DNA from: Corallium rubrum
Taxonomy: Eukaryota > Cnidaria > Anthozoa > Scleralcyonacea > Coralliidae
Assembly: GCA_964035015.1 (NCBI GenBank)
Contig: OZ036005.1
Coordinates: forward strand, 11,696,468 to 11,760,467
Length of the DNA: 64,000 nucleotides
Reading direction: 5' to 3'
Made by a program: the position numbers and the translations under genes. Below the pieces are notes generated by a model. The model was given only the letters and a program-made list of their open reading frames with translations, ran no database searches and had not been told where the DNA came from. Shown in pieces: positions 11,139-64,000 of the stretch. Within the stretch, counting starts at the first letter, position 1. Every line of letters begins with the position of its first letter.

Positions 11139-11572
11139 TAATGGACCTTTTCACCGATAGCGGCGCCATCTTGAATTCGCAATGCATTGTGGTCTATCCA
11201 GGGTAATAAGCTCAATTAAAAGGGTGATTGCTTAGTGTTGAGACACAATGCGGTAATTTTTTCTTGATAAACACTTTCATGACAACAATGTCTAGATATG
11301 ATCGTTGTCATATTAGTAAAAGCAATAATTCTCGTACGTATAAGGATACATCTGTCATGAATCTAAACTTACACGTCCCGGAATTGTTGCTTTTACCAAT
11401 ATGACAATTAATAAAATTAGATATTGTTGCCACGAAAGTATTTATAAAGAAAAAATTACCGCATTGTGTCTCAACACTACGCAATCGCCCTTTTAATGGA
11501 GCTTGTTACCCTGGATAGACCATAATGCATTGCAAATTCAAGATGGCGCCACTATTGGTGAAAAGGTCTATT
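11139..11572. mobile_element. Fold-back MITE, about 434 bp
   Basis: The ends TAATGGACCTTTTCACC and GGTGAAAAGGTCTATTA are inverted. The arms continue for about 150 bp (GGCGCCATCTTGAATT, GCATTGTGGTCTATCC, AGTGTTGAGACACAATGCGG) with mismatches. Non-coding. Confidence 0.85.
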
Positions 11573-13375
11573 AGGTCTTAGCTAGCGCTAATGAAATATT
11601 CTAAATATATGCCCCGAAACACCGCTATCGTGTTTCGTTTGAATCGTGTCCATTTATACAGTTACACGCATATTTTTTTATTTCGGCGATTTCCTGATTC
11701 GATTTCTGTTCTTTGCTCCATCCCCCCTGTTTTTGTATGAGATATTAGGAATTACTCTGAAACGCGCCAGGTGTATAGTAGATCTAGTTCTATCCTAATT
11801 CTTAGTTACTCGGGCTATACGCGTGGTAGACCGAGTCTAGGTTTCGACTCCGAGTCTGCTTCTGTTTTTTTTTTGTTTTCTTTTGAGTCAGAAAAACGGT
11901 GGCTTGGGCCTAGACGAGAAATTTTCACAAACATATATCAACATGATTATTGCTTATTTTCAGACATTAGAAGACTAGTGAATAAATCAAACGCAATCTT
12001 ACAGGTACCATGGACACACTTCTCACCGCAACCGTGGGCTGCTTAGCAACATGCTGCCTCCGTTGACTTGTGTTTGCGTCGCGGCTCTAGCTGCTGTTCT
12101 CTGGTAAGGTTTATCACTAAAGGAGTTTTAGATCCAGTTATTATTCAACTAAGCCTACTGACCGACAAGATTCAAGAGACACAGTAGAAGAGTTGGTTAA
12201 ACTTCTACAAACCGAGGCATACCAGCCATGAAATCTGGTACTCAGGTTAGTCGGATGCTAGACGTAGATTTTCAACTTTGTTCGTTTGTTAATGGAAGTC
12301 TTATAACATGGGAGGTGGAACGCGTTATTATAAGCTGGATTGCATTTACACTAATTAAATGTTAAACAAAAGACTTATTTGGTTATTTACCGAGTTTGAG
12401 GCATTGGGCATAAGTGTCACAAACTGTTAGCGCGCTAGCTCCTCTTACCGGTGAAGTTGGGCCCAGTTGAATGGAATTGGTAGTATTCGGATGGGTATTA
12501 GCTTCATGTGAGTGGAGTTATTAACTTGTCGGTTTTCTTCAATGCCGCGAGAGTTTTTCCCACTGGATTCTCTGGTTTTCCTCCTCCTTCTGTTTAAAAT
12601 GAAGGAATTGTTGTAAAAAGCAATTACGGTTGAACTTTGTCAACTTTCGGCCGGAATAATCAACGAAAATGCACTTTAGTCTACCCAGAGACTCTTGGGT
12701 TTATTCTTTTTCGGTTTCCACAACAACTGAAACTTGAATTACGCTACATTATTGCGTACAATTTTACAAAATTAAATCTCATTAATTCTTGGTCAGTTGA
12801 CAGTCTTTGATAGCTAAATAAACACAAAAAACAATAAGAAAAACCTGTACTTTCCTGACCGTCGAATTTGCTTTTGTTCAGCAGATATTTTTCCCTTCAA
12901 TTCCTTTTTGTCGCTAAAAATATTATTGGCAGAAGGTCGGTAATTCGAAAACATATTGGTTTCTTCGTTGTCATGATCTGTAAGAAAGTTTAGACCGAAT
13001 TTCCTGGTGGGTCACAGTGTTAAAAGAACTTGGACGAACGTTTGTCGAACAGCGGCCGGGAAGATTTTGCAGGCCCTCTCAAAACTATCTATCGCCTCTA
13101 GGGCCTAGTCTCGCTGTGCATAATGGGATTAGTCCCTATTTTGTTTACAGCATCTGGCAGGCCCTCTCAAAAGTATGACCTGTCCATCATGCAATGAGGC
13201 CCTGCGAAGGAGGCAGATAAAGGATAAAGGACTGGGGGGTAATCATCCTTACTCGCAGTCAGCGGCTGAATTGCGAAGGACGCGCAGATCAACGTGGCCG
13301 TGTCGAGGCATATCAGAGGCGCTCAAGGCAGCCGCCATACAACACAGTTCAGACCACGGATCACACGGCTAAGAT
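11573..13375. other. Unassigned DNA with short repeats
   Basis: No coding sequence recognised. GGCAGGCCCTCTCAAAA-type sequence occurs at about 13067 and again at 13157, bracketing about 90 bp. A TTTTCCCACTGGATTCTCTG stretch near 12550 resembles the SINE-associated motif at 13376-13480 and 23432-23530, so decayed SINE material is likely. Confidence 0.4.
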
Positions 13376-22756: not shown

Positions 22757-23206
22757 CTTTAAAAGTGCGCATTAAAGGGCATTTATAATTTGAAAGAACT
22801 CGTGAAATTGTAATAGAAGATCTTTACAACTTTTTCGTGTCTTCGTTTGCAAGATATTTCAATTTGTTCAATATGTAAATGAGATGGGCCCTGACGTCAG
22901 GAGCAGAGTAGAATATTTCTCTACACAAAGCAACATCAGTTACGAAATGTTCAGTGTCCCAAGGCGTTTTTATGTGCACAGCTTCAAGTGATTTCGTTGA
23001 ACAAATTTAGAGAAAACTGATTTTGCTACGTGTGAAAATACTGTACCCTGCTCCTGACGTGCAGAGACCATCTCATTTATATATTAAACAAATTGAAATA
23101 TCTTGAAAACAAAGAAAGATACGAAAAAATTGTAAAAGATCTTCGATTACAATTTAATGAGTTCTTTCAACTTAATTTTTGTTGCCAATGTCCTTTAAGA
23201 CGTAAC
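22757..23206. mobile_element. Fold-back MITE, about 0.45 kb
   Basis: Arms carry AAAGGGCATTTATAATTTGA, GAAGATCTTTACAACTTTTT, AAGATATTTCAATTTGTT and AAATGAGATGG and their complements at 23050-23206. Related to 6924-7340. Confidence 0.75.
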
Positions 23207-27358: not shown

Positions 27359-28542
27359 CTAGAAATACATGAACGCAATAACCCCTCGCCCGCTTTTGCA
27401 TGTATTTTTGTAAATAGCTCCTGATATTCCCCTTGCGCTCTTTTTTATTGGGGGACTGGAAATAGCCACTCCTGTTGATTAAAATGTAGTTTTAATTCTA
27501 GTAGAATATTTGAAATAAAAAAAACTGCAGTTTTAATAAATCTATTTTTTGAAGGAAAAAGTAACGAGGAACAAAGAAAAATTTAAGGATGATATTTCGT
27601 GAAAAATATTGAGATAAAGGAAATTGCACGTCGCTTCCAGGGTTTGAACTCGACCATATTACCGTGCAAGTCGACTATGTTAACCACCAGACTACCGAGG
27701 CAGGTGGCAAAATTTTGTCAAAATATTAGGGTTATATTGTACACTTCTTTCTCTCCATGTTTACAAAAAACATCGCTACAGCATCTGAAAAAATTTTTGC
27801 CTGCCACGGCAATATTCTTTTATGACATTTCAAAGTGCTGAAATTGTTTTCACCTACATGTTAATAAATATTTCAACAGCATTTGTGCGTTTTACAGAAG
27901 AAAAAATGCTCCTTTTCCGATTTTTATGCCAAATTATGGACAAGCTACGTTAGTCACAAGTGGTTTTGACAATAAGAAAACTATTTGAAAAACGATATTA
28001 AGACGGCAGCCACAGATAAAATTTTAAGGACACACAAAAGAGAAAACAAAATTAACAGTGATAGGATATACGTAAGGAAAGTGGGAAACTCGAACAGTTT
28101 TGCTACTAAATGTTCGTGATTACTGAGAGCGGCTGCTCTATATTTTTACCGTAAACTTAAACCGTTTCGCCGGCCTTTATTTCTTCGTCGGTTTTCAAGT
28201 TTCACTCTTGCTTTCTCCTCCTTTTGAGTTTCGGTTTTACAGGTTTCCTTCTACTCAAGACGTTGTTTTACTTTATACGTAGACGTTGATTTGTTTCTGT
28301 TCTTTCAAAAGTGATATACGTTTCCCAAAAACTCCTTTCTCAAATCTTTTTGTCAAGAACTATATTGTCCCCAGTGCCCCACAATCTTAACCGCGCATGG
28401 TCCGTCCACACATATATACAAATAAATAAATAAATAAATATTCAGATCACAGAAATTCGTTCGCATATCACGTTTGTCCACGCGTGTAAAATGGCTCCAC
28501 GCGTGTCGAGATTAGCACCGTCGCCCGGCTCGGGGATTAAGA
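27359..28542. other. Intervening DNA with a tRNA-like tract
   Basis: No ORF of note. The minus strand at about 27640-27712 reads CCTCGGTAGTCTGGTGGTTA then GAGTTCAAACCC, resembling the A and B boxes of a tRNA; a SINE head is the likely explanation. Confidence 0.4.
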
Positions 28543-31237
28543 GGCTATCTCCCTAAAAACCGACCAACGGTTTTTGAAGGCAAAAATGAATTTCCTTTGT
28601 TTTTCGCCCATTATTTACCTTTACCTCACTTACTATTAAACCGCTATAAAAATTGCCACTTGATAATTTGTTCTTCATTTTTGACACATTTTTTATGCTT
28701 CGGCTGGAACGGCTAAGATTCGAGCGGAAATGAGAGCTGACAATACCTCGAAATGATCTTGTTATTTCTCCACCAATTTAGATTTGAATTTCAAATTTTT
28801 TTCTTGCAGTGCAATATATAGAACTTGTATTTCATCTGGGTTGAAGGATACAAGCTCTTTGTTTTGTTTTGTATCAGATATGGTCTCTTTCTTTTGACTT
28901 ACTTTTTAAATTCGCTTACGGCACCTGATTAGTCAAGTTTTATAAATTAAGATTTCTCTGAAGTGGCACCTAGCCTGGAAATGTCGTGTGTATTTCGTCG
29001 TAATATAATACCGTAAGTTTAGTAATCTTTAAAAACAGTTGTCGGCAAACGTATTTTGTAAGCGCACGAACCGCTCAAAGTTAAGCTATTGTTTCACTTT
29101 GTTTACATTGTCAGAACCGGAAATGCCTTACGCTTTGCAGATAAGGCCGTTCTCGTTTCTCAATTATTACATAAAAACAACTTCTTTTTATTTGAACTTA
29201 TCCCTAGAAAGCGAACGGGGCATAATTTATAGGTCTATTCGGTTTTTAGGGTAAAAATGATTAAATATTCTATAGCCGATTCTTCATATATACTCATATA
29301 CAATAGGAGCAGACATGTCGCAACCTCCTAAAGTGACACTTAAATAATTATAATTCATGAGCAACTGAAAGTTTATCATTTTCTCTGTTTATTTCGGTGT
29401 ACTGTTCATATTTTTGTAGCATGAAAAGGTGGCAGCATCTTATACTCTGGAAGAATCGATTAAACGTCTTAAGAATTTTTTAGACTTCACGAACAAATTA
29501 AATCGCTTTTAAGGCCTGGTTCATACGTCGCATTTAATTCAGACGAATTTAATTCATAGTTAAAGTCGACGTAAACTCGAATTTGTTTCATGCGACGAAT
29601 TTAATTCAGTGACGAGCAAGAAAAATCCCGCTAGATCGCGCCAAAAACGTCCAATACGCATGTGAAGTAAACAAAAATCTGATCACTGCCTCAAAAAATA
29701 TGTTATCATAATTTATGCGTTTAATTCGATGCGACGATACAGCGACGTCTGAAACGAACACGTATTTCAGACGTTGTATCCTTCTCACCGTGACGGATAC
29801 AACGTCTCAGACGAATTTAACTCTTCAGTCGAATTTAATTCGTTTCATACGTCGCTGTATCGTCGCATTTAATTAATTAATTGATTGAGTTAAATTCGTC
29901 TGAATTAAATGCGACGATACAGCGACGTATGAAACGAATTAAATTCGACTGAAGAGTTGAATTCGTCTGAGACGTTGTATCCGTCACGGTGAGAAGGATA
30001 CAACGTCTGAAATACGTGTTCGTTTCAGACGTCGCTGTATCGTCGCATCGAATTGAACGCATAAATTATGATAACATATTTTTTGAGGCAGTGATCAGAT
30101 TTTTGTTTACTTCACATGCGTATTGGACGTTTTTGGCGCGATCTAGCGGGATTTTTCTTGCTCGTCACTGAATTAAATTCGTCGCATGAAACAAATTCGA
30201 GTTTACGTCGACTTTAACTATGAATTAAATTCGTCTGAATTAAATGCGACGTATGAACCAGGCCTTAAAAGCGATTTAATTTGTTCGTGAAGTCTAAAAA
30301 ATTCTTAAGACGTTTAATCGTTCTTCCAGCGTATAAGATGCTGCCACCTTTTCATGCTATAAAAATATGAACAGTACACCGAAATAAACAGAGAAAATGA
30401 TAAACTTTCAGTTGCTCATGAATTATAATTATTTAAGTGTCACTTAGGAGGCTGCGACATGTCTGCTCCTATTGTATATGAGTATATATGAAGAATCGGC
30501 TATAGAATATTTAATCATTTTTACCCTAAAAACCGAATAGACCTATAAATTATGCCCCGTTCGCTTTCTAGGGATAAGTTCAAATAAAAAGAAGTTGTTT
30601 TTATGTAATAATTGAGAAACGAGAACGGACTTATCTGCAAAGCGTAAGGCATTTCCGGTTGACAATGTAAACAAAGTGAAACAATAGCTTAACTTTGAGC
30701 GGTTCGTGCGCTTACAAAATACGTTTGCCGACAACTGTTTTTAAAGATTACTAAACTTACGGTATTATATTACGACGAAATACACACGACATTTCCAGGC
30801 TAGGTGCCACTTCAGAGAAATCTTAATTTATAAAACTTGACTAATCAGGTGCCGTAAGCGAATTTAAAAAGTAAGTCAACAGAAAGAGACCATATCTGAT
30901 ACAAAACAAAACAAAGAGCTTGTATCCTTCAACCCAGATGAAACACAAGGTCTATATATTGCATTGCAAGAAAAAAATTTGAAATTCAAATCTAAATTGG
31001 TGGAGAAATAACAAGATCATTTCGAGGTATTGTCAGCTCTCATTTCCGCTCGAATCTTAGCCGTTCCAGCCGAAGCATAAAAAATGTGTCAAAAATGAAG
31101 AACAAATTATCAAGTGGCAATTTTTATAGCGGTTTAATAGTAAGTGAGGTAAAGGTAAATAATGGGCGAAAAACAAAGGAAATTCATTTTTGCCTTCAAA
31201 AACCGTTGGTCGGTTTTTAGGGAGATAGCCTCTTAAG
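28543..31237. mobile_element. 2.7-kb palindromic fold-back element
   Basis: Left arm 28543-29872 and right arm about 29903-31237 are reverse complements over some 1.33 kb with small indels. The ends are TTAAGAGGCTATCTCCC / GGGAGATAGCCTCTTAA and the spacer is only about 30 bp. Near the centre are sub-repeats built on TTAAATTCGTCTGAATTAAA and GCGACG. Mirror-image short ORFs on both strands (e.g. 29039-29254 and 30543-30734) have no recognisable domain. No transposase. Confidence 0.85.
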
Positions 31238-36852: not shown

Positions 36853-37012
36853 ATTATTCAGGCAACTTGAAGATCGCCCCGCGTGAAACCGACAGTTGCG
36901 ACACTCAACATTTTGAAGTAAGACCACTTAAACTATACTATATATATTCGCTCTACCTTCACGGTATTGAGCACTTTCCGACATTCCGTGAACAAAATCA
37001 CACGTGCTCGTT

Positions 37013-37074
<62 letters not shown>

Positions 37075-37201
37075 AACGAGCAGGGTCATTCCCTACGGCT
37101 TTAAATCTTCCTTCAACCTCTTGCATTTTAATTTACCGACCATTCATCGCCATTTCTCTGACTCCATCTCGGCGGCTTGTTCGAATCACTCTCGTCGTTT
37201 G

Positions 37202-39597
37202 ATGCGTATGACCATTCAATCGATGTCCATCTACATACAGCAAACTGATGACAATATTTCGCATTGTAAAACTTTTCTTTCTCAGGTTTGTCCACCAATT
37301 TTGGTCACCGATATTATCACTAAAATTCGCTTTTTAAATTCTAAACTTTATTCGTTTCTTAAAGACGTTAAGGCGTCCAAATTGTCTAAATTATTAGGAC
37401 CTCGCTCTGTTTCTCCTGACTGTACTAGTTCTGTCAACGAAGATAATCTAGTTTTTACCATTCCATCTGATTTACCATTGTCCGACCCAGAGAGATCTGT
37501 TCTTGCGAAAGGTCTCAAATTCGTTCCCAACTCCGGGCCCATTGATTTATTTTCAGTCAAAGAAGACACTGAAGCTTTTTTCCGCCGTTTACGCCTAAAA
37601 GCCCATTTTCATAATCAGTCCTCCACCTTTAATAAGGATGTCTTTGAGGAAATCAACCCTAAAAAGTCTTCTTGGTCTCCACCTGAAGGCCAATTTTCGT
37701 CTCTTGATCTTTTTGTTCGACAGTGCCGCCATGGAATTGACAAATTAAACCATTCACGCCCCAAAACGGCTTCCAACCTCAATAAAGAGGAACTTCTACC
37801 TTTCCAATCATTGCGTTGTCGTAATGACGTTGTCATCAAACCTGCGGACAAAGGTGGTGCCGTTGTTGACTGGAGATCTGACTTGTACCGACAAGAAGCT
37901 CTTTGTCAACTCAGCGATGCCTCCTTTTACACTAAGTTAAGTTCCGATTCCACCATTAACAATCTTATTCAAGCCGGTGAATTGCCTGCCTCTGCCTCCA
38001 ACCTGATAATCACCACTCCTAGAACACCAGTTACCTATTTTTTACCTAAAATTCATAAACCTATGGCAGGCCGATCGTCCCGGCTTGCAGCTGTCCTACT
38101 GAACTCATTTCCAGCTTTTTAGACAATGTTATATCACCTTTGGCAAAGAAGTTGCTTTCCTATATCAAAGATACAAAACATGCCCTACAGATTTTTGACC
38201 AAATACATTTCAGCGGTTCTAGTAAACTCATTTTCACCATGGATGTTAAGTCTCTCTACACCGTCATTCCTCACCGTGATGGTCTGGAAGCTTTGAAGTT
38301 TTTCTTTAATCAACGCACCCTTTTGGAACCATCCACCACTACATTACTTCGCTTGGCAGAACTTGTACTCACCCTCAACAATTTTTCATTTGATGTTGAA
38401 CATTACCAACAGATTAGTGGAGCAGCAATGGGTACCAAAATGGGCCCTAGCTACGCAAACTTATTTGTTGGTTATGTTGAAAAACAAATCTTTGAACGAT
38501 ACACTGGACCCTTTCCTGATCTCTTTAAGAGATACATAGATGATTATTTCGGAACAGCATCGTGCTCGCGTGTGAATTTAGAGAGATTTATTAATTATGT
38601 TAACGATTTCCACCCAGCACTCAAATTCACATGGGAAATCAGTGAAACCTGTGTGTCGTTCCTGGATATCTTGGTATTGATTAGTGATCATTCGCTCATG
38701 ACTTCTGTATCTTATAAGCCGACCGATTCACATAGTTACCTTTTACTTTCATCCTCTCAACCCAAACACACTAAGCAATCCATTCCATACTCTCAATTTC
38801 TGCGACTTCGCCGCCTATGCAGTGATGACAAAGACTTTGAGACCAAATGTTTGGAAATGAGATCCTTTTTTGTCCAGCGTGGCTATCCCACCCACCTGTT
38901 AGACACTGCTATTAACAAAGCATCTAGTATTCCTCGTCCTGACACTTTAAAACAACCTTTAGAGAGAGTTTCTGATACTAAAATACCATTAGTTCTCACA
39001 TTTCATCCTTTCAACTACAAAGTTAAGGATATCATTAGCCACAATTTCCATATCCTAAAGAATGATCCTGAAACGTCAGTTATTTTCACCGACAACCCTT
39101 TAATCTCTTTTCGGCGTAATAAAAATATTCGCGATGGTTTAGTGCGTAGTGTCCTTAGAAAAAATCTATTGGCACCAGCGAGTACTTTTTCTTGCTCCCG
39201 TACCCGTTGTTACACGTGTTCCTTTCTTAACTCCGCTACATGTATTTTGGGACCTAAATCTAATTTTGTTATTCAGCATAATTTTACTTGCATCTCTTCC
39301 AACATCATTTACTGTATTTCTTGCAATAAATGTTGCATGATTTACATCGATGAAACTGGCAGACGTTTATCTGACAGGTTTGCTGAACATCTTCGTTCTG
39401 TGAGGAACAATGATGTTGACAAGCCTGTTGCCCGACGTTTTAATAGTGCCAACCATTGTATTTCGGACATGCAAGTTTGTGCCATCTCACCCATTTCCGG
39501 CGGTAATGTCAGCCGCAAAAGACTAGAAAAGCGTCTCATTTTCAAAATTGGTACAATTCATCCTCACGGACTCAACGAACGTTTTTCTTTTATTTAA
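37202..39597 (+). CDS. Penelope-type reverse transcriptase with GIY-YIG endonuclease, one frameshift
   Basis: The coding frame is continuous from the (TA)n run. 37202 is the first Met after it and is chosen as the start. Blocks in order: LPLSDPERSVLAKGLKFVP, VIKPADKGGAVV, YFLPKIHKP, then a one-base frame slip at about 38068-38075. After it come IPHRDGLEAL with MDVKSLYT (motif A), ISGAAMGTKMGPSYANLF (motif B), RYIDDYFG (catalytic YIDD, 38533-38544) and a C-terminal zinc-finger/GIY-YIG region (RCYTCSFLNS, IIYCISCNKCCMIYIDETGR, then RFAEHL). The usual Y-I-G is Y-I-D here, and the frame slip also makes the copy defective. Ends HPHGLNERFSFI at a TAA. Confidence 0.92.
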
Positions 39598-43344: not shown

Positions 43345-43640
43345 TCCGTTAGATAATGGAAGGGGAACTGGATAGGAAACTTCAAACGAGGTTAAAGAAC
43401 CGGAAACGTTGTTTGCACAACTTGCTATGGTAATTACACACTTAAAAGCAGCTAATGCACCTATTGCTGAAATTAGACAAAAGTGTTATATCACTTAAGT
43501 TCAGCAGTGTCTGATTTTAGCCATGTGGGACCACCCGTTAGGTGCATTGCCCGCTTATAAGTGTATAATTACCATAGCAAGTTGTGCAAACATCGTTTCC
43601 AGTTTCGTATGTTTCCTATCCAGTTCCCCTTTCATTATCT
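43345..43640. repeat. Inverted repeat, about 0.3 kb
   Basis: ATAATGGAAGGGGAACTGGA, TAGGAAAC and GTTTGCACAACTTGCTATGG pair with complements at 43560-43640. Confidence 0.7.
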
Positions 43641-43642
43641 AT

Positions 43643-46777: not shown

Positions 46778-47614
46778 CTATAAAAAGACAAAATTAATAC
46801 AATGCCCTGAGTAACCTCTTTGTCCACCTGGTTTAATATAAACTCTCATAATAGGGAGAGCTCGAGCAATCAACATTTCCTCAACTTGAGTCAAACCATG
46901 TAACTCATGTGGTACTGGTGAAGGAATCATTGAATTTTCAAATGAGAACTTTTTAGGAAACTTGGTATCTCTAGAACATCGTGAGCATACATAATTATTG
47001 GGTGAACGTGGTTTAGATTTCAGTGGCCATGCCTCTTGACAAATTGTGCATTGACTGATGGAATATTCAACAGATTTATGAAATTTAGCAATGTTGGATT
47101 TTGCCCATTTTTGTTCTTGAATACTACCATTTTCTTTAATGTCAAATTCTTTCAAATAATCCTTCTGATTGATAACTTTATTGGTATTACTTTGTTTAGG
47201 TCTGGCACATCTTCTAATTTCAGATTTGTCTGAACACTTTTCGTTCAGCTTAACATTTGCAAGTTGAGCTTGCTTTTCAATAGTAGTCTCCTCTGCCCGT
47301 TTTCTTTTTCTATATTTTCTAGCATTTTCAAGTCTAGTTTGTGTTTCATTTTCAGTTTCTGCTGCTCGTTTAGTTTTCTGAAAATTTCTAGCATTTTCAA
47401 GTCTAGTTTGTTTCTCATGTTCAGTTTCTACTGCTTGTTTAGTTTTCTGATATTTTCTATCATTTTCAAGTCTAGTTTGTTTCTCATTTTCAGTTTCTAC
47501 CACTCGTTTGGTTTTCTGATATTTTCTAGCATTTTCCAAAATTCTAGTTTGTTTCTCACTATGAGTACTTGTACTTTGGACTAATGAAGGATTAGAGCCT
47601 TCTTGCATTATCAA
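46778..47614 (-). CDS. Helitron-associated N-terminal protein (DUF6570-like), truncated
   Basis: 278 codons from the ATG at 47614. Residues about 20-115 are four imperfect repeats of about 24 residues ([20 protein letters not shown]), predicted coiled and highly charged. A cysteine region follows: [22 protein letters not shown]. Then comes [40 protein letters not shown] and GHCINF. The last part matches the DUF6570-type domain found before Helitron_like_N and PIF1-type helicase in Helitron proteins. It ends HCINFVFL with no Rep or helicase, so it is truncated or has an unseen intron. It diverges from the KDZ-associated gene with 167 bp between starts. Confidence 0.75.
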
Positions 47615-47781
47615 ATGAAGCTTATATTATACCATCGTTTTGTAAAAGAATTCGGTGGCACGCGTGCCAGCGTGCCAGCACCAGTCCCCAACAGTATGTA
47701 AGCGCTCTGCTTTGTGTGTGTATTTGCGTTCGCCTTTTGACATTATTATTGTTCGACTTTCCTTCTTGCATTTGTGTTGAA

Positions 47782-48656
47782 ATGGCGGGTAGACAACCCA
47801 AAAAAAAGAGAACATCGGGGCTAGTATTCAACTTTGATGAAGTAAAAGCAAGAGTGGAGTCAAAAAACGACTATGTTCGTGATGTTCGCCAACGGCTTAA
47901 TGCACTAAAAGAAGTGGATTTATGTCGCCTCATTTCAGATACGTGCAATTTGACCGAAGACGAAGCTTTACAATTGCTAGCAAGTAAGCTTTCAGTCAAC
48001 GGTCTTTATAATCTGCGAAGAGCGATAAATCATGTGCCAGATAACATTACTCGCGTGGTCGATGGAACCTCCATGCGTTCGACACTGATATTCAAACTCT
48101 TTGAGAGTTTGTCTTCACCTAACAGCGAAAACATCACAATACAGGACCTCTCGCTGTACACACAGTTTGCTGAAATGTATTGCTCTTCGCTCCTTTCTGT
48201 AAAAGAAAACGACAACCACTTATGGAAGCTAACAGAGAAGGAGAACTTATCTTTTAACAAGTTCTTGACGCCACCAGTTTCGTTGTGCATGCATTGCAAC
48301 AAGAAGCTTTCGATGCGCAACAACCCTTGCAAAGCCAAACTGTTCACGCTTAATGGGCCAATTCCTTGCACGAAAGTGACACTGGAGTGCAGAGACTGCG
48401 GTCATATTTATGGGATCTGCAATTACAGTGATGCAATGGGAACGCACTTTTATCCCCGTGCTATCAATAATGGCGTTGAGTTGGTGGAAGTAAGCGGTGT
48501 CGCTTACTTTGAGCAGAAATTGTATGAATGGTTTCCATCTCTCAGGTTAGTAAGATCGTTATTCCAATCATGCCTAACATTTAATTACAGATTAAACTGC
48601 TTGTTTACAACTTTAAAAATAATTATTTATATATAATAATTATATAACATAATATA

Positions 48657-52632: not shown

Positions 52633-53200
52633 ATGATGTCGGACCGTGTCAATGACGTTAATGAAGGAACAACATCATGTTCAAAGAAAAGTAGCGTGAA
52701 ACCTGAGACTGTTCAAAAGTGGGTCACCCGGTTTGATAAAGAGTTTCAAACTTTTTCATGGTTGGACTACTCAACAGAAAAAGAAAAAGGCATAAACGTT
52801 GTCACACAGTTGAAGTGTAAAGTTTGTAAGAAATACAAGAAGAGAATAACAGGCTGCAGAAATTTTAGCGATAAATGGGTAGTAGGAGCTAACAGTGTTA
52901 AAACATCAAATGTTAGAGAACATGCTATGTCAGACCAGCATGTCCATGCCATGAATCTGCAAAATAAAGAATTTGCCCGATCTGAAGGGAAGTCCCTTGT
53001 TCCTAGAGAAGCCCCTATTATACAAGCTCTGGAAAACCTTTCAAACGAAGAGCAGGAGAGAATGAAGATAAAATTTGACGTGGCATATTTTGTGGCAGCA
53101 GAGTAAATGCTTTTTTCAAAGTACCCCAGTATCTGTGTTCTGGAGAAACGACATGGTGTAAGTAGTGATACCCCCCCATATAGGGACCAAAGGGATGCCG
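52633..53200 (+). pseudogene. hAT-type transposase/ZNF862-like N-terminus, premature stop
   Basis: From the ATG at 52633 the frame reads KPETVQKWVTRFDKEFQTF, SWLDYSTE, LKCKVCKKYKKRI, NSVKTSNVREHAMSDQHVHA and LENLSNEEQERMKIKFDVAY. This is the TTF/C17orf113-type zinc finger and following region of hAT-derived proteins such as ZNF862. A TAA at 53104-53106 interrupts; the same frame then continues MLFSKYPSICVLEKRHGVSS to about 53200 and homology is lost. The dimerisation and catalytic domains are missing. An upstream exon is possible (CTATAG|ATTATATTGG). Confidence 0.75.
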
Positions 53201-53542
53201 CCTCATTAAATATTCAATTTTTAATTATTCATTCTCATGCTCCTTTGCGACCCTCTAACCCTAATCTCATTACGTCATTATTTCTCATGCTCCTTTGGGA
53301 CGTCGTAACCCTAACTTTCCCCCCTAAACCCTAGTTGTTACTCAACCCCCTGGTATTCATACGTCATAACCGATAGCTCTCCGACTGATTTCCGAAGTTA
53401 CGCCATTATCAAAAGGTACTCGGCTTATATCCTTATAAGTAATAGTAATCACCTTTTCATTTAAACACTTTACCCTACTGACAGTCGACAGTTGTGGGAC
53501 ACGTAGACGTACAGAGCATGCGTACACTAAACTTTAACAAAA
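53201..53542. other. Unassigned DNA with CCCTAA-like bits
   Basis: CTCATGCTCCTTTGCGACC and CTCATGCTCCTTTGGGACG are direct repeats (about 53237 and 53286), each followed by TAACCCTAA. No gene. Confidence 0.5.
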
Positions 53543-53700
53543 TAGACGCTCTTTACAAGGAACTAAAGAGAAATAGTCATGTGGATTAGCGAAATGATCG
53601 TGACAGAAGTGACAAAAGCACCAAAATTGGCACAAATGCACGTTATAGCGTCCTTATCAATATTTGAGTAGGAGCCCAAGCTAACTCCCCCCTGAACTCT
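53543..53700. repeat. Left flanking inverted repeat of the FEN-like gene
   Basis: AGACGCTCTTTACAAGGAAC, GTCATGTGGATTAGCG, AGTGACAAAAGCACCAAAAT and GAGTAGGAGCCCA match, in opposite orientation, 63974-64000 (first block) and 59330-59459 (the rest). Confidence 0.75.
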
Positions 53701-54156
53701 TTATATGATAAATAAAAGTTTATCCAAATATACGAATTGGGGTACCTGTGGTGATATAAATGATGTTTTTAATACTAAGCTGGAAATTGTAAATGATACT
53801 TACTGTAAGTGTATTTTGCTATATTTATTGATTATATATTGTTTTAAGTACAAACGATGGATTTTAGGACGTTTCTTATGTACACTAAATAGATGTTTGA
53901 AGTATCGCTCCCAGCCCTCGCTCGGCCATGGTCAGTTTCAAAATGGCTGCCAACATGCAAACTTGCAAGAACTGTAAGTATTTAGAGCAATTTTACTCTT
54001 CTTTCGTGTTGATACGGTATTTTATCATAACAATAATAGTCTTATTTGTAAGCAAACCACATTTGCCAAACTTAATGATAAAATTTGATTAAATTATAGA
54101 TGAATTTTGTGTCAGCCATAAGTAAAAAGTAAAGTCGGACAGCCTATCTTTTTTCC
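53701..54156. other. Upstream region of the FEN-like gene
   Basis: AT-rich with no clear core promoter element. It contains GCCATGGTCAGTTTCAAAAT, GGCTGCCAACATGC near 53925-53960, possibly a 5' exon followed by GTAAGT at 53971. This is speculative. Confidence 0.35.
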
Positions 54157-57100
54157 ATGTCATTCAACTGGGATAATTGTATCATATGCCAGGAAACTAA
54201 AGCCGATGCTTTAAAATGTCCGTTAAATGACCTACGGCATCTTGCCAATGGTAGTGATGTCTATGCTACATTTTTGAACAACGTAAAGGAGCTGCGCTCA
54301 ATTGATGCTCTGCCGTGTCAGCTTCAACTTGACGAAGATACAATCGTCGATGATCTAATACAAAATCGTGCTTCATGGCATAAGTTGTGCAATTTAAAAT
54401 TCACCAAATCTAAGGTTATCAGAGCAAAAGAGGCTATAGAGCGAAGAAAAAGGGCAAACGAACCCGAAGCTGAACCAGAAGAAGTAAAAAAAGGGACATC
54501 TAAACGTAAAAAAACCTCGGACAGTATCTGGAATTGTATCTTCTGCACCACTGACTCTAACGACAAGCTTCACAATTTTACCACCCTTGAGGCCGATAGA
54601 AGTCTTCGTCAGATAGCGTCAGAAGTTGGAGATTTTGAGTTACTGTCTCGTATTTCTGGCGGAGACCTTGTAGCAATAGAAGCCAAGTATCACTTATCCT
54701 GTCTTACATCATTCAGGAACAACTATAGATCTTTCTTGTCGAAAAAGAGCAAGATTTCTGAGACAGATGACGAAAAGATCAATGAGTGTCGAGCTTTTAT
54801 AGAGTTAGTTAATTTTATTGAGAAATCTGTTGAAGAAGGAACTCAGTTTTTCAAACTGTCTGAGCTTCATTCCTTGTTTGAAGGTCGACTTAAAGATTTA
54901 GGAGTTACTAAAACGGTGAACAAAACAAGGTTAAAGAAAGCTCTCCTAGAACACTTAGAAGATGCTCAAGAGCAGCATGACGGAAAGAACATGGTGTATG
55001 TATTCAAGGAAGGAATGCGCAATATACTTAAAGAAGCACTTAAAACGAGAGACTTTTCCGATGACGCTGCTGTTCTAGCAAAAGCAGCAACGATTGTTAG
55101 AGATGATTTGTTTGCTCACAAAGGATTTAATTTCTCTGGTTGTTTCCAAATCGAGTGCCAGCAAAACTCGGTACCCTCTAGTCTTAAGTCACTTGTCGCT
55201 ATGATACTTAATGGACTTAACCTTAAAGAGCAAGAGAAAAATGAATCTCAGGCATGTCTTACCATATGTCAAACAATCATGTTCAACACGAAGAAGAGAA
55301 CCTACAGTTCTAAGACGTCCGAGACACGCCACTCCTTATTGCGCGAGCCGCCTCTTCCATTGTATCTTGGATTGAACATTCACGCAATGACAAGAAGTAA
55401 GACACTTGTAACCAAGCTTTTTCAGATGGGGATTAGTGTGTCCTATGACCGCATAAGAGAAATAGAGGATTGGCTGGCTACCTCTGTCAGTGAGCGTTTC
55501 AAGGAAGATGGATGTGTTACGCCTGCTTGTTTGAGAAAGGGCATATTCTCTGTTGGTGCCCTTGACAACATCGACCATAACCCGAGCTCAACAACTTCAG
55601 CCTCGTCATTTCATGGAACTGGGATAAGTATATTTCAGTTTCCGACAAAGGAAGTTCTGGGTCAAGAAAGAGAACCACTAACTATTCCACCTACTGGAAC
55701 TGAACAGCACGCTCTCCCAGACGAATATTGCATTGTACCTCCTACCGAGCTAAAGACAAATACTGTATCAGTACCAGAACGTCAGATGACCACAGTACAA
55801 GCCACCTTGACCGATGCAATAACACAAGAAGATCGATGGGTTACACATGCGATGTCAAAACTGAGCAAAGACCCCGTGGATGCTGAGGACACCATAACAT
55901 GGGCAGCTTACCACTCATCGCTGCAGCCTCCTCCCAACGAACCTCATGCAATCACTTCTCTTCTGCCGCTTTTTTATGAAAAAGCCGCTACGCCAGCTAT
56001 GGTGAAGCATGGTATGGACGTGCTACGTCAATCCATAACATTTCTTAACCCTGGGCAAATACCAGTCATGGCAGTCGACCAGCCTTTATTTGCTTTGGCA
56101 AAACTTGTCCAGTGGAGGTATCCTACAACTCACGGTGAGAACAATTACGTTGTGATGTTTGGCGGGTTGCACATGGAAATGGCATTATGGAATACTCTCG
56201 GCGATTTGCTAGAAAAATCAGGATGGACTACAGCCCTTGCTGATGCAGATGTTGCTTCATCTGGCACTGCAGACGCTTTTTTGAAAGTGTCCCATCTTAC
56301 GCGAACAAGGTATGCAGTAAATTCATATAATCATATTCCCCTATAGTGACAACTTTGCGCTAGTTAATCTAGACTTTTTATTCAGTTACATCTGTTAAAA
56401 CGTATCTTTTTGGCAGACATGCTCATCAGGTAACTCTTCTTGTACTTCACAAACTGAAGAAAGATGCCTTTCACTATCAAGCTGAACATGACGACGACAG
56501 CACCTTTGCGTCGTGGGAAAATAACATGAGGCAACGAAGTCCCACCTTCAAGTATTGGGATATAATCATGCGATATGAGACTCTCATACTCTTGTTTGTA
56601 CGAGCCTGCAGAGAAAGGAACTTTACATTATATGTTGAAGTTCTGGACGAGCTGATCCCTCTTTTCTTTGCCCTGGATCACGTGAATTATGCTCGATGGG
56701 CACCTATTCATGTCAGGGACATGAAGTCCCTACCAACTGCAATCAAGAGTGAGTTTCAAGAAAAAGGACACTGGGTGCTCTCAAAAACAAACAGAAAGTT
56801 CTCAGCGATCCCTCTAGACCAGGCACATGAGCAAGAGAACAAGTTTGTTAAAGGCGACGGTGGTGCAGTAGGACTCACCGAAAATCCTACTGCGTTAAGG
56901 TGCATACTATTGCTTTTTGTTATTCTAAACCTAGAAATTCTTACGCAACTAATTCCTTGTATAATTTATTTTAAAAAGCTGTTCCCATCTCAATAATGAT
57001 ATATTCTGCATCTTTTTTCAGACGATGGATGCTTTCTGGTCCCGAACTCTCTAGAACGTTGCGGCAATTTGAAGAAGAGTACCTCGGCAATGATGATCCA

Positions 57101-59015
57101 GATGACCACCAGAATCATCTAAACCATGAAACTGGAAGAGCAGCTCAAGTGAGGTTTCAAAAGCAAGTGAGCAGTCTCTCTGAAGTGATCATCAAGATGG
57201 GAAACCCTTTCATGGACGATTTTCCAGAGCTGTTGACTCTTGACTGTAGAGACTGTGCCAAGGAAGCAGTAGCTGAGACGTTACTCAATCTTGAAGCGAC
57301 TGGGAAGCAGCAATACCAGAATTATATGCAAAATGTAATAATCGACCGCACGAAGTCAATCCATGAGACCATCAAGAAAAACAACTTTCCACTGTTTGGA
57401 AAGCCACGCACAAAGACCCTGTCCAAACAAGGGAAACAAATTGTAACTCTGAAAAACAACGTTGCTCTCTTCGCTCAGTTGTACGTTGCGATGCAGAATA
57501 GAGATAGTGATATGGAAGAGTTCTTTGCGCACGAGGTACAGTCGTTTCCACCCTCAATTTCAGATTGTGGAAATCTCAGATTGCCAAGTGCGAAGTCAGA
57601 TGTCTTGAAGTTTTTGCAGCCAGCCGACCAGCCCGAGCCTGGCAAAGAGTTTGATTGCAGAATCCTGGATGGTGCAGTAGTTGTGCATTCTCTCCCCATC
57701 AACGGAGTTTCCACCTTTAACCAATACGCTGATGAGGTTTTTCTCCCTCATATCCTGCATCAAGCATCACAGAGTGGTAGAACCGATATCGTGTGGGACG
57801 CATACCGTCCCGAAAGCTTAAAAGAGGCTACGAGAGAGAAGAGAGGCAAAGGAGTGAGAAGAAAGGTTTCTGCTCAAACGAAGATGCCACATAAATGGAT
57901 GGAGTTTCTACGCGACCCTGCAAACAAGGCGGAGCTGTTTGACTTCTTGACAGCCAAAGTTAAAGCATACAAATGGCCAGCCGGGAAAGCAATTTATATC
58001 ACTTCAGGTAACTAACTTACCTATAATAAATCAAGTGATTGCAATAGTTGTGATAATTGTGTATTATGCCTTATAGGTACATCTGTGATATCAATCGGTC
58101 CAAGTATTCCAATGCCGCCATGTAATCACGAGGAGGCGGACACGCGAATCGTAATTCATGTATTACACGCCCTCAGGTCCCATGAAGCAAAGTCTGTTGT
58201 GGTGAGAACCGTCGACAGTGATGTTGTAGTCATCCTCATCGGTAAGCTCTATGACATTCAGCATCAGCATCCTGAAACTGATATTTGGGTCGCCTTTGGA
58301 ATGGGCCGTCACTTCAACTTCCTCAGCATCAATGCCATATGTGTTTGCCTTGGAGAACCAAAGTCAAAATCCCTACCGGTGTTTCACGCACTGACTGGCT
58401 GTGACACCACCTCTTGCTTCTATGGTAAGAGCAAGCAGTCTGCCTGGAAGGCATGGGAGATGTACCCTGAAGTAACTAACACCTTTGTCGCCTTAGCATC
58501 TCTACCTTTCCAGTCAGTCATCGTCGGGTCTGAAACCTTCGCGAAGATAGAGCGTTTCATCGTCATCATGTATGACAAGCTGAGTCCTTTGTCCTCTGTC
58601 AACGCAGCTCGAATGGAAATATTCTGTAAGAACAATAGGGCGATAGAAAGGCTACCCCCGACACAGGTATGTACACAGTAAACATCATACATAATTCATA
58701 TATTATAAGTTATAATAATATTGTTTTCTTCTTTCCGTCCAGGATGCGCTCCTTCAACACGTTCTAAGAGCTGTCTACCAGGCGAGCATTTGGACAACCA
58801 GTGACCAGCCACAGCCCGATGTGCCAACTCCTGAACAATTCGGATGGAAGAAAGTGGAAAGCACTTGGTCACCAGTGTGGATGCTTCTCCCAGAAGTCTC
58901 AAGAGCCTGCAGAGAGCTCATCAAGTGTTCGTGCCGAGGACGCTGTGATAGGTGCAAGTGTTTCAAAGCGCATCTGAAATGCACACCTCTCTGCAAATGC
59001 AAATGCAGTAGATAG
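54157..59015 (+). CDS. Multi-domain FEN/XPG-like nuclease family protein, five exons, 1494 residues
   Basis: Exons 54157-56309, 56417-56899, 57022-58007, 58077-58666, 58743-59015, all GT-AG with agreeing phases (2, 2, 1, 0) and no internal stop. N-terminus: two CxxC...HxxxC motifs (C8/C11 with H75/C78; C127/C130 with H179/C182), with a basic KKGTSKRKK between them. Middle: GIFSVGALDNIDHNPSSTTS, FHGTGISIFQFPT, PVMAVDQPLFALAK, VVMFGGLHMEMALWNTLGD. The later region carries, in FEN1 order and similar spacing, LDGAVVVHSL (D1095), VWDAYRPESLK..R (D1138), HEEADTRIVIH (E1226/E1227), VRTVDSDVVVIL (D1254/D1256) and LTGCDTTSC (D1317), then GKSKQSAWKAW like the helix-two-turn-helix. C-terminus: CXC-like CSCRGRCDRCKCFKAHLKC, CKCKC. 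Nuclease fold is inferred; the function and whole-family role are unknown. Intact structure suggests recent activity or selection. Confidence 0.85.
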
Positions 59016-59309
59016 CGAATAGGAACAGTTTTTGTCTCTAATAGAATCAGAATGTTTCTAAGGTGGGGAATGATTCGTTGGTTGTTCACTGGTTAAAAGT
59101 AATTGCGAGCCTTTGTAAATGGCACTGTGCATGCTGGGTAGAGGACATTATGCATATGACACTAAAGAATGACTCGTTGCTATTAAAGTTCATTCATTAT
59201 GAAAATTTTCCATGAAATCATATATTCCCGTGGTCGAAAGATTTGTTTTTATTTCCTTTTATATCTGGCTTGGTAACCAGGCTTTCAATCAAGGTAGCCA
59301 TTTCCTTTA
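59016..59309. other. 3' flank of the FEN-like gene
   Basis: Short 3' UTR-like sequence. A poly(A) signal-like ATTAAA is near 59180. No other feature. Confidence 0.4.
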
Positions 59310-59459
59310 CCCCTTAATTTAGGACAAAGACGCCCCAATTTCGCTGGGCTCCTACTCTAACTTTTATCAGTAGGCCATAAGGAACATCTGGACCAAGTTT
59401 GTTGCTTTTGTCACTCTTGTAACGATCCGGTGAAAATTTGACGCTAATCCACATGACTA
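59310..59459. repeat. Right flanking inverted repeat of the FEN-like gene (inner part)
   Basis: The reverse complement reads TAGTCATGTGGATTAGCG, GAGTGACAAAAGCAACAAAC, TTCCTTATGGCC and AGAGTAGGAGCCCAG, matching 53575-53690 with gaps. The outer part (AGACGCTCTTTACAAGGAAC) is displaced to 63974-64000 by the palindromic insertion. Confidence 0.75.
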
Positions 59460-60774
59460 AAATTGATAGAGGCACTTTATATTTTTTTATCTGAAACCTT
59501 GTCTCGATGAGCATAGAGAGTTTTGAGCCAGAGCTCGTATAGACTTAGATTAATAGCATATGATGAATATTATATTAGGTTTAGAACCTAAATATTCAAT
59601 CACCCTAGAATCATTGCTAGCTAAACCCTTGTTTATAAGTGAAGAAATCATAAGAAGATAGAATGAGGAGTCAATTCAAAAGCCATAAGAACGTTTTTAA
59701 GTGTCAATATATAAACGAAATATTATTTGGCTGTGGGACGGCTGGAGTATCGACTTGAATTAATAGCATATCGTGACTATTATATTCAAACAGAGTAAGT
59801 CTTCACAGAATTATTACTAAACCTCGTTTATAAGCGAAGAAATCGTAAGAATATGGGGTGAGGAATCACTTTGGGAAGTCAAACTTAAGATATTATGAGG
59901 AGTCGATTCGAAAAACTAAGGAGTTTCAAACGTATTGGCACATGGCAACGTAAATCTTGTATAGAGAACGCTTAGCAACGTCAATATGATTATATTAAGA
60001 CACTTGGAAACAAATCAAGCACAGAATTATTACTAGGTTAACCTTAGTTTATAAGTGAGGAAATCGTAAGAAGATAGAATGGGGAATCACTTCGAGAAGC
60101 CGTAAGAAGACACAAATCAATTCGAAAAGCGAAGAGCAAAGACTTGTCGATATATAACTGAGATACATCATGGTTACTAGGCTTTCTGCTAATAAGAACG
60201 ATATAAACAATAAGATTCTCGCACGTGCAGGACACAAAAGAGAAAACTCGTTAAAGTTACTAATGACCAAAACATAACAGGATTTGCATATAAGTAGAAT
60301 ATTTAATTCATTTTAGGGGTAATCATGACTTTTGGGGGGATAATAAGGGGCATAGAGAGGTTTTAATGCATGGGCAAGTTCAGGCGAGAAAGTCATTAGC
60401 GTGTATTTTGCATAAGACAGAATTCACAACAATCAGTTTAAAATATTTATTTAGGCTTTGGTTTAAACATATACATATAAAAAGTTTTAGTAAGGTCTGC
60501 TTCTTAGATTATATTTAGGTGTTTTTATTTTAAAAGTAGCATGATAATCTTTCTTGTCCTCTGATGATAATTGGGACACGTCTTCTTTTGTCATGGGTAA
60601 ATATTTTATCAATAGATTGGTGTTCATACTCTTCTCTTTCATCCGGAGTCATCTTTGCCAAGTCTTTCTCTGTCGGGTCGCCCAAACTTTCCCAGTTATG
60701 AAAGAAATTATGTTTAAGCGTCGGTTGTTCAACGGTAGGAGGCGGTGTTACAAAATAGGTTTTAGGTGTAGCAG

Positions 60775-61262
60775 GGAAACCCCACGGAGTACCCCTGGGG
60801 TAACCCTAAACACCCCCTGGGATACCCCCAATCACCCCTGGGGTAGCCCCAAATACCCCAGGGGTAACCTCCAAACACCCCTGGGGTAACCCCAAACACC
60901 CCAAGGGTAACCCCCAAACACCATCGGGATACCTCAATCACCCCTGGGGTAACCCCCAAACACCAGCGGGGTACCCCCAATCACCCCTGGGGTAACCCCC
61001 AAACACCCCCGGGGTACCCCAAATCACCCCAGGGGTAACCCCCAAACACCCCGGGGGTAACCCCAAACACCCCAGGGGTAACCCCCAAACACCACCGGGA
61101 TACCCCAATCACCCCTGGGGTAACCCCCAAACACCCCCGGGGTACCCCCAATCACCCCAGGGGTAACCCCCAAACACCCCCGGGGTACCCCCAATCACCC
61201 CAGGGGTAACCCCCAAACCCCCCCGGGATACCCCAATCACCCCTGGGGTAACCCCAAACACC
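60775..61262. repeat. C-rich minisatellite, left arm
   Basis: About 22 units of GGGGTAACCCCCAAACACC / GGGGTACCCCCAATCACCCC. Mirror of 62170-62658. Open frames such as GVPRWCLGVTPG are artefacts. Confidence 0.95.
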
Positions 61263-61407
61263 CCTGCTGCAGAACGGAGCTATTTTTTTCAGGTAAAACA
61301 TTGGTCTTGAGGCGATGATCGTCATCCGTAGTCGGTTTCAGATCAAGCATTAAATAACCATGAGGGCGACTTGTGGCTTCCTCGTAGCTCTTCATAAACT
61401 CTTGAAC

Positions 61408-62196
61408 ATGTCCTACGTTCGTGAAGTTTGTGGAAAATCTTTCGCTAATTCAGGTAATCTCCTCCGTCACATGAAGATGGTTCATAGATCATCGACAAAA
61501 CAAATACGACAAGTATTTCCTCTCGTCAATGGATCCACAGTCCTGCAGCATCCATTTACGTGCATTGTTGCAGGGTGTACTCAGAGTGGTAAAACCGTAT
61601 GGGTAAAAACTCTTCTGGAAAACGCCAAAACTACGATTAATCCTCCTCCTGAACGTATCATTTGGTGTTATGGCCAGTGGCAACCCATGTATCTTGAGAT
61701 GATCAAAACTATACCGGGCATTGAACTGAATGAAGGAATACCTACTAACATCGACTCGGAAGATTTTCTTGATGTTTCGAGGCGAAACCTTATTGTCCTA
61801 GATGATCTTATGGATCGATCAGGGGGAGATAAACGTATTGCTAGTTTATTTACAAGGGGCAGTCATCACAGGAATCTCTCCGTGATCTATATTGTTCAGA
61901 ATATATTTCATCAAGGAAAGGAAACCAGAAACATCAGCCTCAACGCACACTATATCGTACTCTTCAAGTCTCCAAGGGATAAGCAGCAAATTTCTATTTT
62001 GGCACGACAAGTGAATCCTGGACATGTTCAAGAGTTTATGAAGAGCTACGAGGAAGCCACAAGTCGCCCTCATGGTTATTTAATGCTTGATCTGAAACCG
62101 ACTACGGATGACGATCATCGCCTCAAGACCAATGTTTTACCTGAAAAAAATAGCTCCGTTCTGCAGCAGGGGTGTTTGGGGTTACCCCAGGGGTGA
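61408..62196 (+). CDS. A32/FtsK-HerA-type packaging ATPase with degenerate N-terminal C2H2 finger
   Basis: The frame runs from ATG 61408, whose bases lie in the last bases of the left arm. An earlier in-frame ATG at 61360 reads only antisense copy of the gene's own tail, so it is not used. Order: a finger-like VREVCGKSFANSGNLLRHMK (first Cys replaced by R), then HPFTCIVAGCTQSGKTVWV (Walker A, about 61573-61597), RRNLIVLDDLMDRSG (Walker B, about 61795-61818) and GSHHRNLSVIYIVQNIF (sensor-like). The C-terminal PHGYLMLDLKPTT lies in the right arm. The end, past KNSSVLQQ, runs into the minisatellite (stop 62194-62196). In Polintons, adintoviruses and NCLDV relatives this enzyme packages DNA into capsids. 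N-terminus probably lost in the fold-back. Confidence 0.82.
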   Translation: MSYVREVCGKSFANSGNLLRHMKMVHRSSTKQIRQVFPLVNGSTVLQHPFTCIVAGCTQSGKTVWVKTLLENAKTTINPPPERIIWCYGQWQPMYLEMIKTIPGIELNEGIPTNIDSEDFLDVSRRNLIVLDDLMDRSGGDKRIASLFTRGSHHRNLSVIYIVQNIFHQGKETRNISLNAHYIVLFKSPRDKQQISILARQVNPGHVQEFMKSYEEATSRPHGYLMLDLKPTTDDDHRLKTNVLPEKNSSVLQQGCLGLPQG

Positions 62197-62658
62197 TTGG
62201 GGTATCCCGGGGGGGTTTGGGGGTTACCCCTGGGGTGATTGGGGGTACCCCGGGGGTGTTGGGGGGTTACCCCTGGGGTGATTGGGGGTACCCCGGGGGT
62301 GTTTGGGGGTTACCCCAGGGGTGATTGGGGTATCCCGGTGGTGTTTGGGGGTTACCCCTGGGGTGTTTGGGGTTACCCCCGGGGTGTTTGGGGGTTACCC
62401 CTGGGGTGATTGGGGGTACCCCGGGGGTGTTTGGGGGTTACCCCAGGGGTGATTGGGGGTACCCCGCTGGTGTTTGGGGGTTACCCCAGGGGTGATTGAG
62501 GTATCCCGATGGTGTTTGGGGGTTACCCTTGGGGTGTTTGGGGTTACCCCAGGGGTGTTTGGAGGTTACCCCTGGGGTATTTGGGGCTACCCCAGGGGTG
62601 ATTGGGGGTATCCCAGGGGGTGTTTAGGGTTACCCCAGGGGTACTCCGTGGGGTTTCC
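62170..62658. repeat. G-rich minisatellite, right arm
   Basis: Units of GGGGTTACCCCAGGGGTGTTTG / GTGATTGG, mirror of the left array, with at least one substitution between them. Runs of four or five G every 6-10 bases are compatible with G-quadruplex. Confidence 0.95.
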
Positions 62659-62660
62659 CT

Positions 62661-62903
62661 GCTACACCTAAAACCTATTTTGTAACACCGCCTCCTACCG
62701 TTGAACAACCGACGCTTAAACATAATTTCTTTCATAACTGGGAAAGTTTGGGCGACCCGACAGAGAAAGACTTGGCAAAGATGACTCCGGATGAAAGAGA
62801 AGAGTATGAACACCAATCTATTGATAAAATATTTACCCATGACAAAAGAAGACGTGTCCCAATTATCATCAGAGGACAAGAAAGATTATCATGCTACTTT
62901 TAA
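62661..62903 (+). CDS. Possible small ORF remnant in the right arm (mirrored in the left arm)
   Basis: An open frame with codon-like composition, VTPPPTVEQPTLKHNFFHNW, DPTEKDLAKMTPDEREEYEH. A second overlapping frame from about 62832 continues MTKEDVSQLSSEDKKDYHA, PKYNLRSRPY and stop (about 62937). It could be the shifted end of one former gene. No family recognised. Confidence 0.3.
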   Translation, partial: ATPKTYFVTPPPTVEQPTLKHNFFHNWESLGDPTEKDLAKMTPDEREEYEHQSIDKIFTHDKRRRVPIIIRGQERLSCYF

Positions 62904-63973
62904 AATAAAAACACCTAAATATAATCTAAGAAGCAGACCTTACTAAAACTTTTTATATGTATATGTTTAAACCAAAGCCTAAATAAATATTTTAAACTGA
63001 TTGTTGTGAATTCTGTCTTATGCAAAATACACGCTAATGACTTTCTCGCCTGAACTTGCCCATGCATTAAAACCTCTCTATGCCCCTTATTATCCCCCCA
63101 AAAGTCATGATTACCCCTAAAATGAATTAAATATTCTACTTATATGCAAATCCTGTTATGTTTTGGTCATTAGTAACTTTAACGAGTTTTCTCTTTTGTG
63201 TCCTGCACGTGCGAGAATCTTATTGTTTATATCGTTCTTATTAGCAGAAAGCCTAGTAACCATGATGTATCTCAGTTATATATCGACAAGTCTTTGCTCT
63301 TCGCTTTTCGAATTGATTTGTGTCTTCTTACGGCTTCTCGAAGTGATTCCCCATTCTATCTTCTTACGATTTCCTCACTTATAAACTAAGGTTAACCTAG
63401 TAATAATTCTGTGCTTGATTTGTTTCCAAGTGTCTTAATATAATCATATTGACGTTGCTAAGCGTTCTCTATACAAGATTTACGTTGCCATGTGCCAATA
63501 CGTTTGAAACTCCTTAGTTTTTCGAATCGACTCCTCATAATATCTTAAGTTTGACTTCCCAAAGTGATTCCTCACCCCATATTCTTACGATTTCTTCGCT
63601 TATAAACGAGGTTTAGTAATAATTCTGTGAAGACTTACTCTGTTTGAATATAATAGTCACGATATGCTATTAATTCAAGTCGATACTCCAGCCGTCCCAC
63701 AGCCAAATAATATTTCGTTTATATATTGACACTTAAAAACGTTCTTATGGCTTTTGAATTGACTCCTCATTTTATCTTCTTATGATTTCTTCACTTATAA
63801 ACAAGGGTTTAGCTAGCAATGATTCTAGGGTGATTGAATATTTAGGTTCTAAACCTAATATAATATTCATCATATGCTATTAATCTAAGTCTATACGAGC
63901 TCTGGCTCAAAACTCTCTATGCTCATCGAGACAAGGTTTCAGATAAAAAAATATAAAGTGCCTCTATCAATTT

Positions 63974-64000
63974 CTCTTTAGTTCCTTGTAAAGAGCGTCT
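63974..64000. repeat. Displaced outer part of the right flanking repeat
   Basis: The reverse complement AGACGCTCTTTACAAGGAAC, TAAAGAG equals 53543-53570. It continues beyond the window. Confidence 0.75.

Follow-up and report, generated by a model that had tools for sequence, protein, structure and literature searches.

A probable AcademX-type DNA transposon of Corallium rubrum encodes a transposase-like protein with a predicted FEN/XPG-type nuclease domain

A 64,000-nt stretch of the Corallium rubrum genome (OZ036005.1, assembly GCA_964035015.1; C23:11696468-11760467 in the assembly), hereafter the window, was analysed to follow up a gene that a sequence-only reading had described as coding for a FEN/XPG-like nuclease, possibly the enzyme of a mobile element. 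This gene proved to fill a 5,886-bp DNA transposon with inverted ends and a 3-bp target-site duplication, and the suspicion of mobility was borne out by these ends, the duplications, an empty site and ten copies in the genome. We interpret the element as probably a copy of autonomous type from a young cut-and-paste family within the AcademX lineage of Academ transposons, in which the nuclease would carry out 5'-strand processing.

Element structure and insertion site

The limits of the element (Table 1) are set by comparison with the other arm of a host inverted repeat, in which the same site is uninterrupted near 63971-63973. With AAA counted once, the joined flanks are identical to this arm at 1978 of 1981 positions, and the junction agrees with the empty site at 90 of 90 positions only with a 3-bp duplication, other lengths in the range 0-6 giving 43-57/90. 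Most simply, the transposon was inserted after the host inverted repeat had formed. Its terminal repeat arms are 75% identical over 115 columns, with a perfect match in the outermost 18 bp.

The rebuilt gene consists of five exons on the forward strand separated by four GT-AG introns, and comprises 1494 codons and a stop without internal stops, as the sequence-only reading had it. Homologues align through the junctions; over the 19 residues around each, the spanning rows free of indels numbered 182/182, 183/183, 69/174 and 136/154 for junctions 1 to 4; support is clearly lowest for the third. The exon-2 acceptor tried first breaks the frame and was dropped in favour of the one before 56417, with which the frame is open and no base needs to be altered.

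Table 1 Positions of the transposon, its gene and other features within the window
Feature	Position	Strand	Residues or basis
Left target-site duplication AAA	53571..53573	.	Comparison with empty site
Whole transposon	53574..59459	+	5,886 bp
Left terminal inverted repeat, 105 bp, outer end TAGTCATGTGGATTAGCG	53574..53678	+	Arm comparison
Exon 1	54157..56309	+	Residues 1-717
First zinc-like motif C8-C11-H75-C78	54157..54390	+	Conserved in 62/62, 64/65, 67/67, 68/68 rows that span the respective sites
Second zinc-like motif C127-C130-H179-C182	54535..54702	+	69/69, 70/70, 71/71, 70/70 of rows
Winged-helix-like region, residues ~201-290	54757..55026	+	
DDE-transposase-like domain	55447..56309 (exon 1: D470/D473, D641), via exon 2 (E856), to about 57040	+	Inferred
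Exon 2	56417..56899	+	Residues 718-879; DDE-like domain continued
Exon 3	57022..58007	+	Residues 879-1208
FEN/XPG-like domain, exon 3 part (D1095, D1134, D1138, K/R-rich segment)	57590..58007	+	Model and homologue conservation
Exon 4	58077..58666	+	Residues 1208-1404; holds E1226, E1227, D1229, D1254, D1256, D1317
Exon 5	58743..59015	+	Residues 1405-1494, then stop; end of the FEN-like match to EXO1 near 58832
CXC tail, nine cysteines (1466-1492)	58926..59006	+	Each 95-99% conserved
Right terminal inverted repeat, 115 bp	59345..59459	-	Arm comparison
Right target-site duplication AAA	59460..59462	.	Comparison with empty site
Other arm of host inverted repeat	62020..64000	-	Uninterrupted site
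Open frame, Pfam CxC5 (cysteine cluster associated with KDZ transposases)	47596-48633	+	E 5.2e-9
Open frame, Pfam DUF6570, beside the CxC5 frame	46781-47626	-	E 8.1e-12
Two overlapping frames	36992-39597	+	Second: RVT_1, E 5.6e-6 (below Pfam cut-off), GIY-YIG-looking end by eye

The insertion host spans window positions 53161-64000 and continues to about 64383 (L105), with 2,364-bp inverted arms, termini AGTAGTGATACC and a 6-bp duplication, GGTGTA; its central open frame matches Pox_A32 (E 1.1e-6) and also has a C2H2 finger slightly below the cut-off. By these features the host is itself apparently mobile, probably as a short Polinton/Maverick-like derivative.

Domain organisation of the encoded protein

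Within residues 1080-1400, nine of the 34 acidic residues (D or E) are at least 95% conserved in 183 homologues, which goes beyond chance. These are the seven named in the sequence-only reading (D1095, D1138, E1226, E1227, D1254, D1256 and D1317), all found at the positions it gave in the rebuilt protein, together with D1134 and D1229. Conservation of the proposed carboxylates is high (D1095, 183/183; D1138, 182/182; E1227, 171/173; D1229, 173/173; D1254, 169/172; D1256, 170/172; D1317, 166/167). Their proposed equivalence to those of FEN1, judged by order and strand ends, is amended at one point: FEN1 E158/E160 form the motif E-A-E, which by sequence pattern E1227/D1229 (E-A-D) fit better than the originally proposed E1226/E1227. 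An 84-row alignment shows no variation at +8 (lysine), +12 (arginine) and +15 (arginine) relative to the second acid, and these are candidate helical-gateway residues.

The region is predicted to form a PIN-like fold of the FEN/XPG type, as had been suspected, and the closest folds in the rows listed are EXO1 and FEN1, with ~260 residues aligned at 12-13% identity. It resembles the 5' nucleases FEN1, EXO1, XPG, GEN1 and XRN in predicted fold, in the order and conservation of its acids and possibly in the invariant K/R positions after the second acid; unlike them, it is embedded in a transposase-like protein, and the searches described below gave no profile match. The domain is a putative structure-specific 5' nuclease.

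Model m732ffb0f859b also matches predicted structures of viral proteins, namely alloherpesvirus Allo54, ranid herpesvirus proteins, and viral XRN and FEN (prob 0.97-1.00); Allo54 and the ranid herpesvirus proteins may, by this comparison, carry a FEN/XPG-type fold.

Upstream of the nuclease, a middle domain contains the conserved acids D470/D473, D641, E674 and E856 with a strand/helix order in the model that would suit a DDE-type transposase core, the candidate catalytic residues being D470/D473, D641 and either E856 or E674. The DDE-like nature of this domain, like the terminal inverted repeats and the target duplication, is an addition to the sequence-only reading. It shares with Transib and RAG1 a weak fold similarity and, in our reading, acids in the order D, D, E, the E being preceded by a long helical insert. 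It differs from them in that the match probability is 0.47 and below and the duplication is 3 bp, compared with 5 bp for Transib. Neither Transib nor RAG1 was among the best 50 VIA-align rows, which the FEN part had filled.

Eleven of 30 homologues give a match to Pfam DUF6589 (PF20231), a family of unknown function, over the DDE-like domain's C-terminal half, whereas the window protein itself had no DUF6589 match in the Pfam search; NCBIfam gave no match near the cut-offs for three homologues. These weak matches suggest that DUF6589 may be the transposase core of Academ-type elements, which, if true, would aid the naming of many animal proteins now called 'uncharacterized'. Both N-terminal CxxC/HxxC motifs may bind zinc, judging by their conserved residues; no clear known fold was seen for the N-terminal zinc parts among the matches listed, and a further comparison covered mainly residues 202-289.

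Family members, age and distribution

Copies were sought in the 474-Mb assembly, where matches represent exon pieces and counts are lower bounds; at least 162 were found for the FEN part and at least 101 for the DDE part. Ten copies in the genome include that of the window, to which the other nine are 98.4-99.3% identical, one of them (L089) being interrupted by an insert. Ten left ends were recovered at 98-100% identity, and all ten copies have 3-bp duplications (AAA, ATT, TTT, TAA, TCA, TAA, ATA, AAC, TGA and GTT). Such duplications also flank seven more diverged elements (L098, L102, L103, L104, L106, L107 and L108), whose outer ends were placed at a common TAGT terminus, within or beside their inverted repeats. 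Across the 20 elements examined, both ends were located in 17, every one with a 3-bp duplication (17/17); both ends were not located in L099, L100 and L101.

The mean synonymous difference among copies is 0.012, and the family is therefore young. Read with the exon boundaries of the window copy, the frame is open in that copy only (1/10), and L097 has a single stop. The overall pN/pS over 45 non-independent pairs of copies is 0.50; values by block are 0.57 (residues 1-200), 1.21 (201-430), 0.50 (431-880), 0.61 (881-1079), 0.30 (FEN) and 0.78 (1401-1494), the changes being too few to carry weight.

Homologues among the matches listed include those of the cnidarians Nematostella, Oculina, Paramuricea and Actinostola, as well as those of two fishes, a hagfish, a sea spider, a crab, a limpet, two sea urchins, a sea cucumber and a leaf beetle. 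One listed row carries the label of a bacterial metagenome-assembled genome (Sedimenticola) and is probably host DNA. With two short peptide patterns, relatives were confirmed for 0 of 21 pattern matches on bacterial or archaeal contigs and for 0 of 18 on viral contigs.

A derivative present in two copies, L098:4062-7744 (3,683 bp) and L104:4204-7879 (3,676 bp), has TAGTC ends and matches the window protein from residue 862 onward only, the zinc and DDE parts being gone. The two copies are identical at 3643 of 3685 columns, have 3-bp duplications TTT and AAG, respectively, and share an open 633-codon FEN-CXC frame with its first Met at codon 22. Four nonsynonymous changes were counted among nine single-change codons (P 0.03 under neutrality, setting aside two multiply changed codons), which is suggestive, not strong, sequence evidence that FEN-CXC may be useful by itself. 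Identity to this derivative falls to 60% or less in the next rows of the assembly, and no close full-length progenitor was therefore found. In the diverged relatives L107 and L108, the DDE part forms frames of 972 and 970 codons and the FEN part lies in another frame; either a pair of proteins, a frameshift or an intron would account for this.

The ends of L098 contain TTTCCAAGATGGCGGCCA, repeated around positions 4183 and 4344, and a similar sequence, AAAATGGCTGCCAACATG, is located inside the window element at 53940-53957. Both are similar to AAGATGGCGGC, the YY1 site.

Classification and proposed mechanism

The nuclease of Academ elements is reportedly of the XPG type (Kapitonov and Jurka; Kojima 2020). 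Published accounts give duplications of 3 or 4 bp for AcademX and 9 or 10 bp for AcademH and tie them to the nuclease and helicase encoded (PMC10045372), report a mean of 5,565 bp for curated bivalve Academ elements (PMC10294476), and tabulate 'Academ-1' repeats in corals (PMC11370458). Compared by description, the window element is like AcademX in combining a transposase-like domain with a predicted nuclease in one protein, in its 3-bp duplication (3-4 bp published), in its inverted ends of 105 and 115 bp and in its size (~5.5-6 kb), and unlike it in that the C. rubrum genome also has the FEN-CXC-only derivative. The 'new architecture' of the sequence-only reading is accordingly withdrawn, as a transposase and nuclease with 3-4 bp duplications had already been described for AcademX (PMC10045372); the pairing is known from Academ, and the element is probably a new, unusually clean member.

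Functionally, the pairing would be analogous to that of Tn7, where TnsA is a nuclease of a different fold, separate from and beside the DDE transposase. Kolobok is another eukaryotic group of DDD/E transposons bearing their own nucleases, in the lineages KolobokD, KolobokE and KolobokP; these are DnaQ, lambda-exonuclease-like and His-Me nucleases, in contrast to the predicted FEN/XPG type here (PMC9587614). While accessory nucleases of other folds are known, the role of the Academ nuclease in transposition appears untested; no paper on it was found in the open-licence literature, from which most subscription papers are missing. The family described here is young and offers one open copy, an empty site and clear ends, with which this role could be assayed directly.

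Several observations weigh against this interpretation. The Academ assignment is based on published description together with structure, size and duplication length. The model is that of a homologue sharing 60% identity with the window protein, and its best Foldseek E-values against PDB were no lower than 5e-3. The Pfam XPG families (XPG_N/XPG_I) were unmatched in the window protein and 30 homologues with E-values as high as 1 admitted, FEN was unmatched among PDB sequences, and hhalign to the T5 FEN family returned a probability of 0.4%; one segment of that alignment pairs D1095 and D1138 with T5 D26 and D68, which at 0.4% is not evidence. Foldseek matches of the DDE-like part were weak (Transib prob 0.47, RAG1 <=0.15), three DUF6589 scores in a six-protein set fell below the curated cut-off, and E674 is conserved in 175/179, nearly as strongly as E856, so that either may be the last catalytic acid. 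Profile tests are insensitive at ~13% identity. The unmatched FEN/XPG profiles would also be expected if the acidic residues had been aligned by chance within an unrelated fold, which we regard as highly improbable beside their conservation and the predicted fold. A host gene or domesticated protein is no more credible: the intact five-exon gene and the single open frame among ten copies would suit it, whereas the inverted ends, 3-bp duplication, empty site and ten dispersed near-identical copies do not. This alternative is set aside because of the copies and the empty site, which speak against it unless a single copy was recruited very recently.

DDE transposases work on 3' ends, and FEN-type enzymes on 5' strands. 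In the mechanism proposed here for the AcademX-type element, the N-terminal zinc-like and winged-helix-like parts would bind DNA, the DDE core would cut and join the 3' ends with a 3-bp stagger, and the FEN/XPG domain would cut the non-transferred strand at the element ends or trim 5' flaps after joining; this 5' processing would let the gaps be filled, giving the 3-bp duplication. We consider 5'-strand processing by the nuclease in the course of transposition quite likely, and two variants differ in the step at which it would act. Once the strands are joined, the nuclease may trim 5' flaps, or it may take part in repair at the gapped insertion or the donor break. This is a serious possibility that falls short of an even chance: it agrees with what FEN1 and EXO1, the nearest folds, take as substrates, but host FEN1 could do the same, and the keeping of a nuclease by the element would be left unexplained. 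At junctions, FEN/XPG enzymes cleave the 5' strand, and FEN enzymes prefer flaps over intact duplex; the former property is in favour of, and the latter against, a TnsA-like partner that cuts the non-transferred 5' strand at the donor site, the DDE and FEN sites jointly producing a double-strand cut. This second variant, which we consider possible yet rather doubtful, gains from the joint presence of DDE-like and FEN-like parts in the window protein and in long homologues (of 120 rows listed, 62 have at least 1350 aa) and from the published link between duplication length and the enzymes of nuclease- and helicase-bearing Academ lineages (PMC10045372), and loses from the different frames of the two parts in L107 and L108.

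A bolder form, which we think unlikely, would place two metal-dependent sites in one polypeptide, DDE for 3' ends and FEN for 5' strands, as a fused eukaryotic counterpart of TnsA/TnsB, with FEN-CXC able to act in trans alone; such action in trans would explain why L098 and L104 keep the open 633-codon frame despite loss of the transposase.

Other features of the window

Outside the transposon and its host, the CxC5 and DUF6570 frames lie side by side, and the two overlapping frames with the RVT_1 match (Table 1) are perhaps a Penelope-like element. A 2.7-kb region at 28537-31236 is 98% identical to its own reverse complement, and smaller self-palindromes are located at 8312-8765, 11138-11574, 22786-23174 and 43350-43641.

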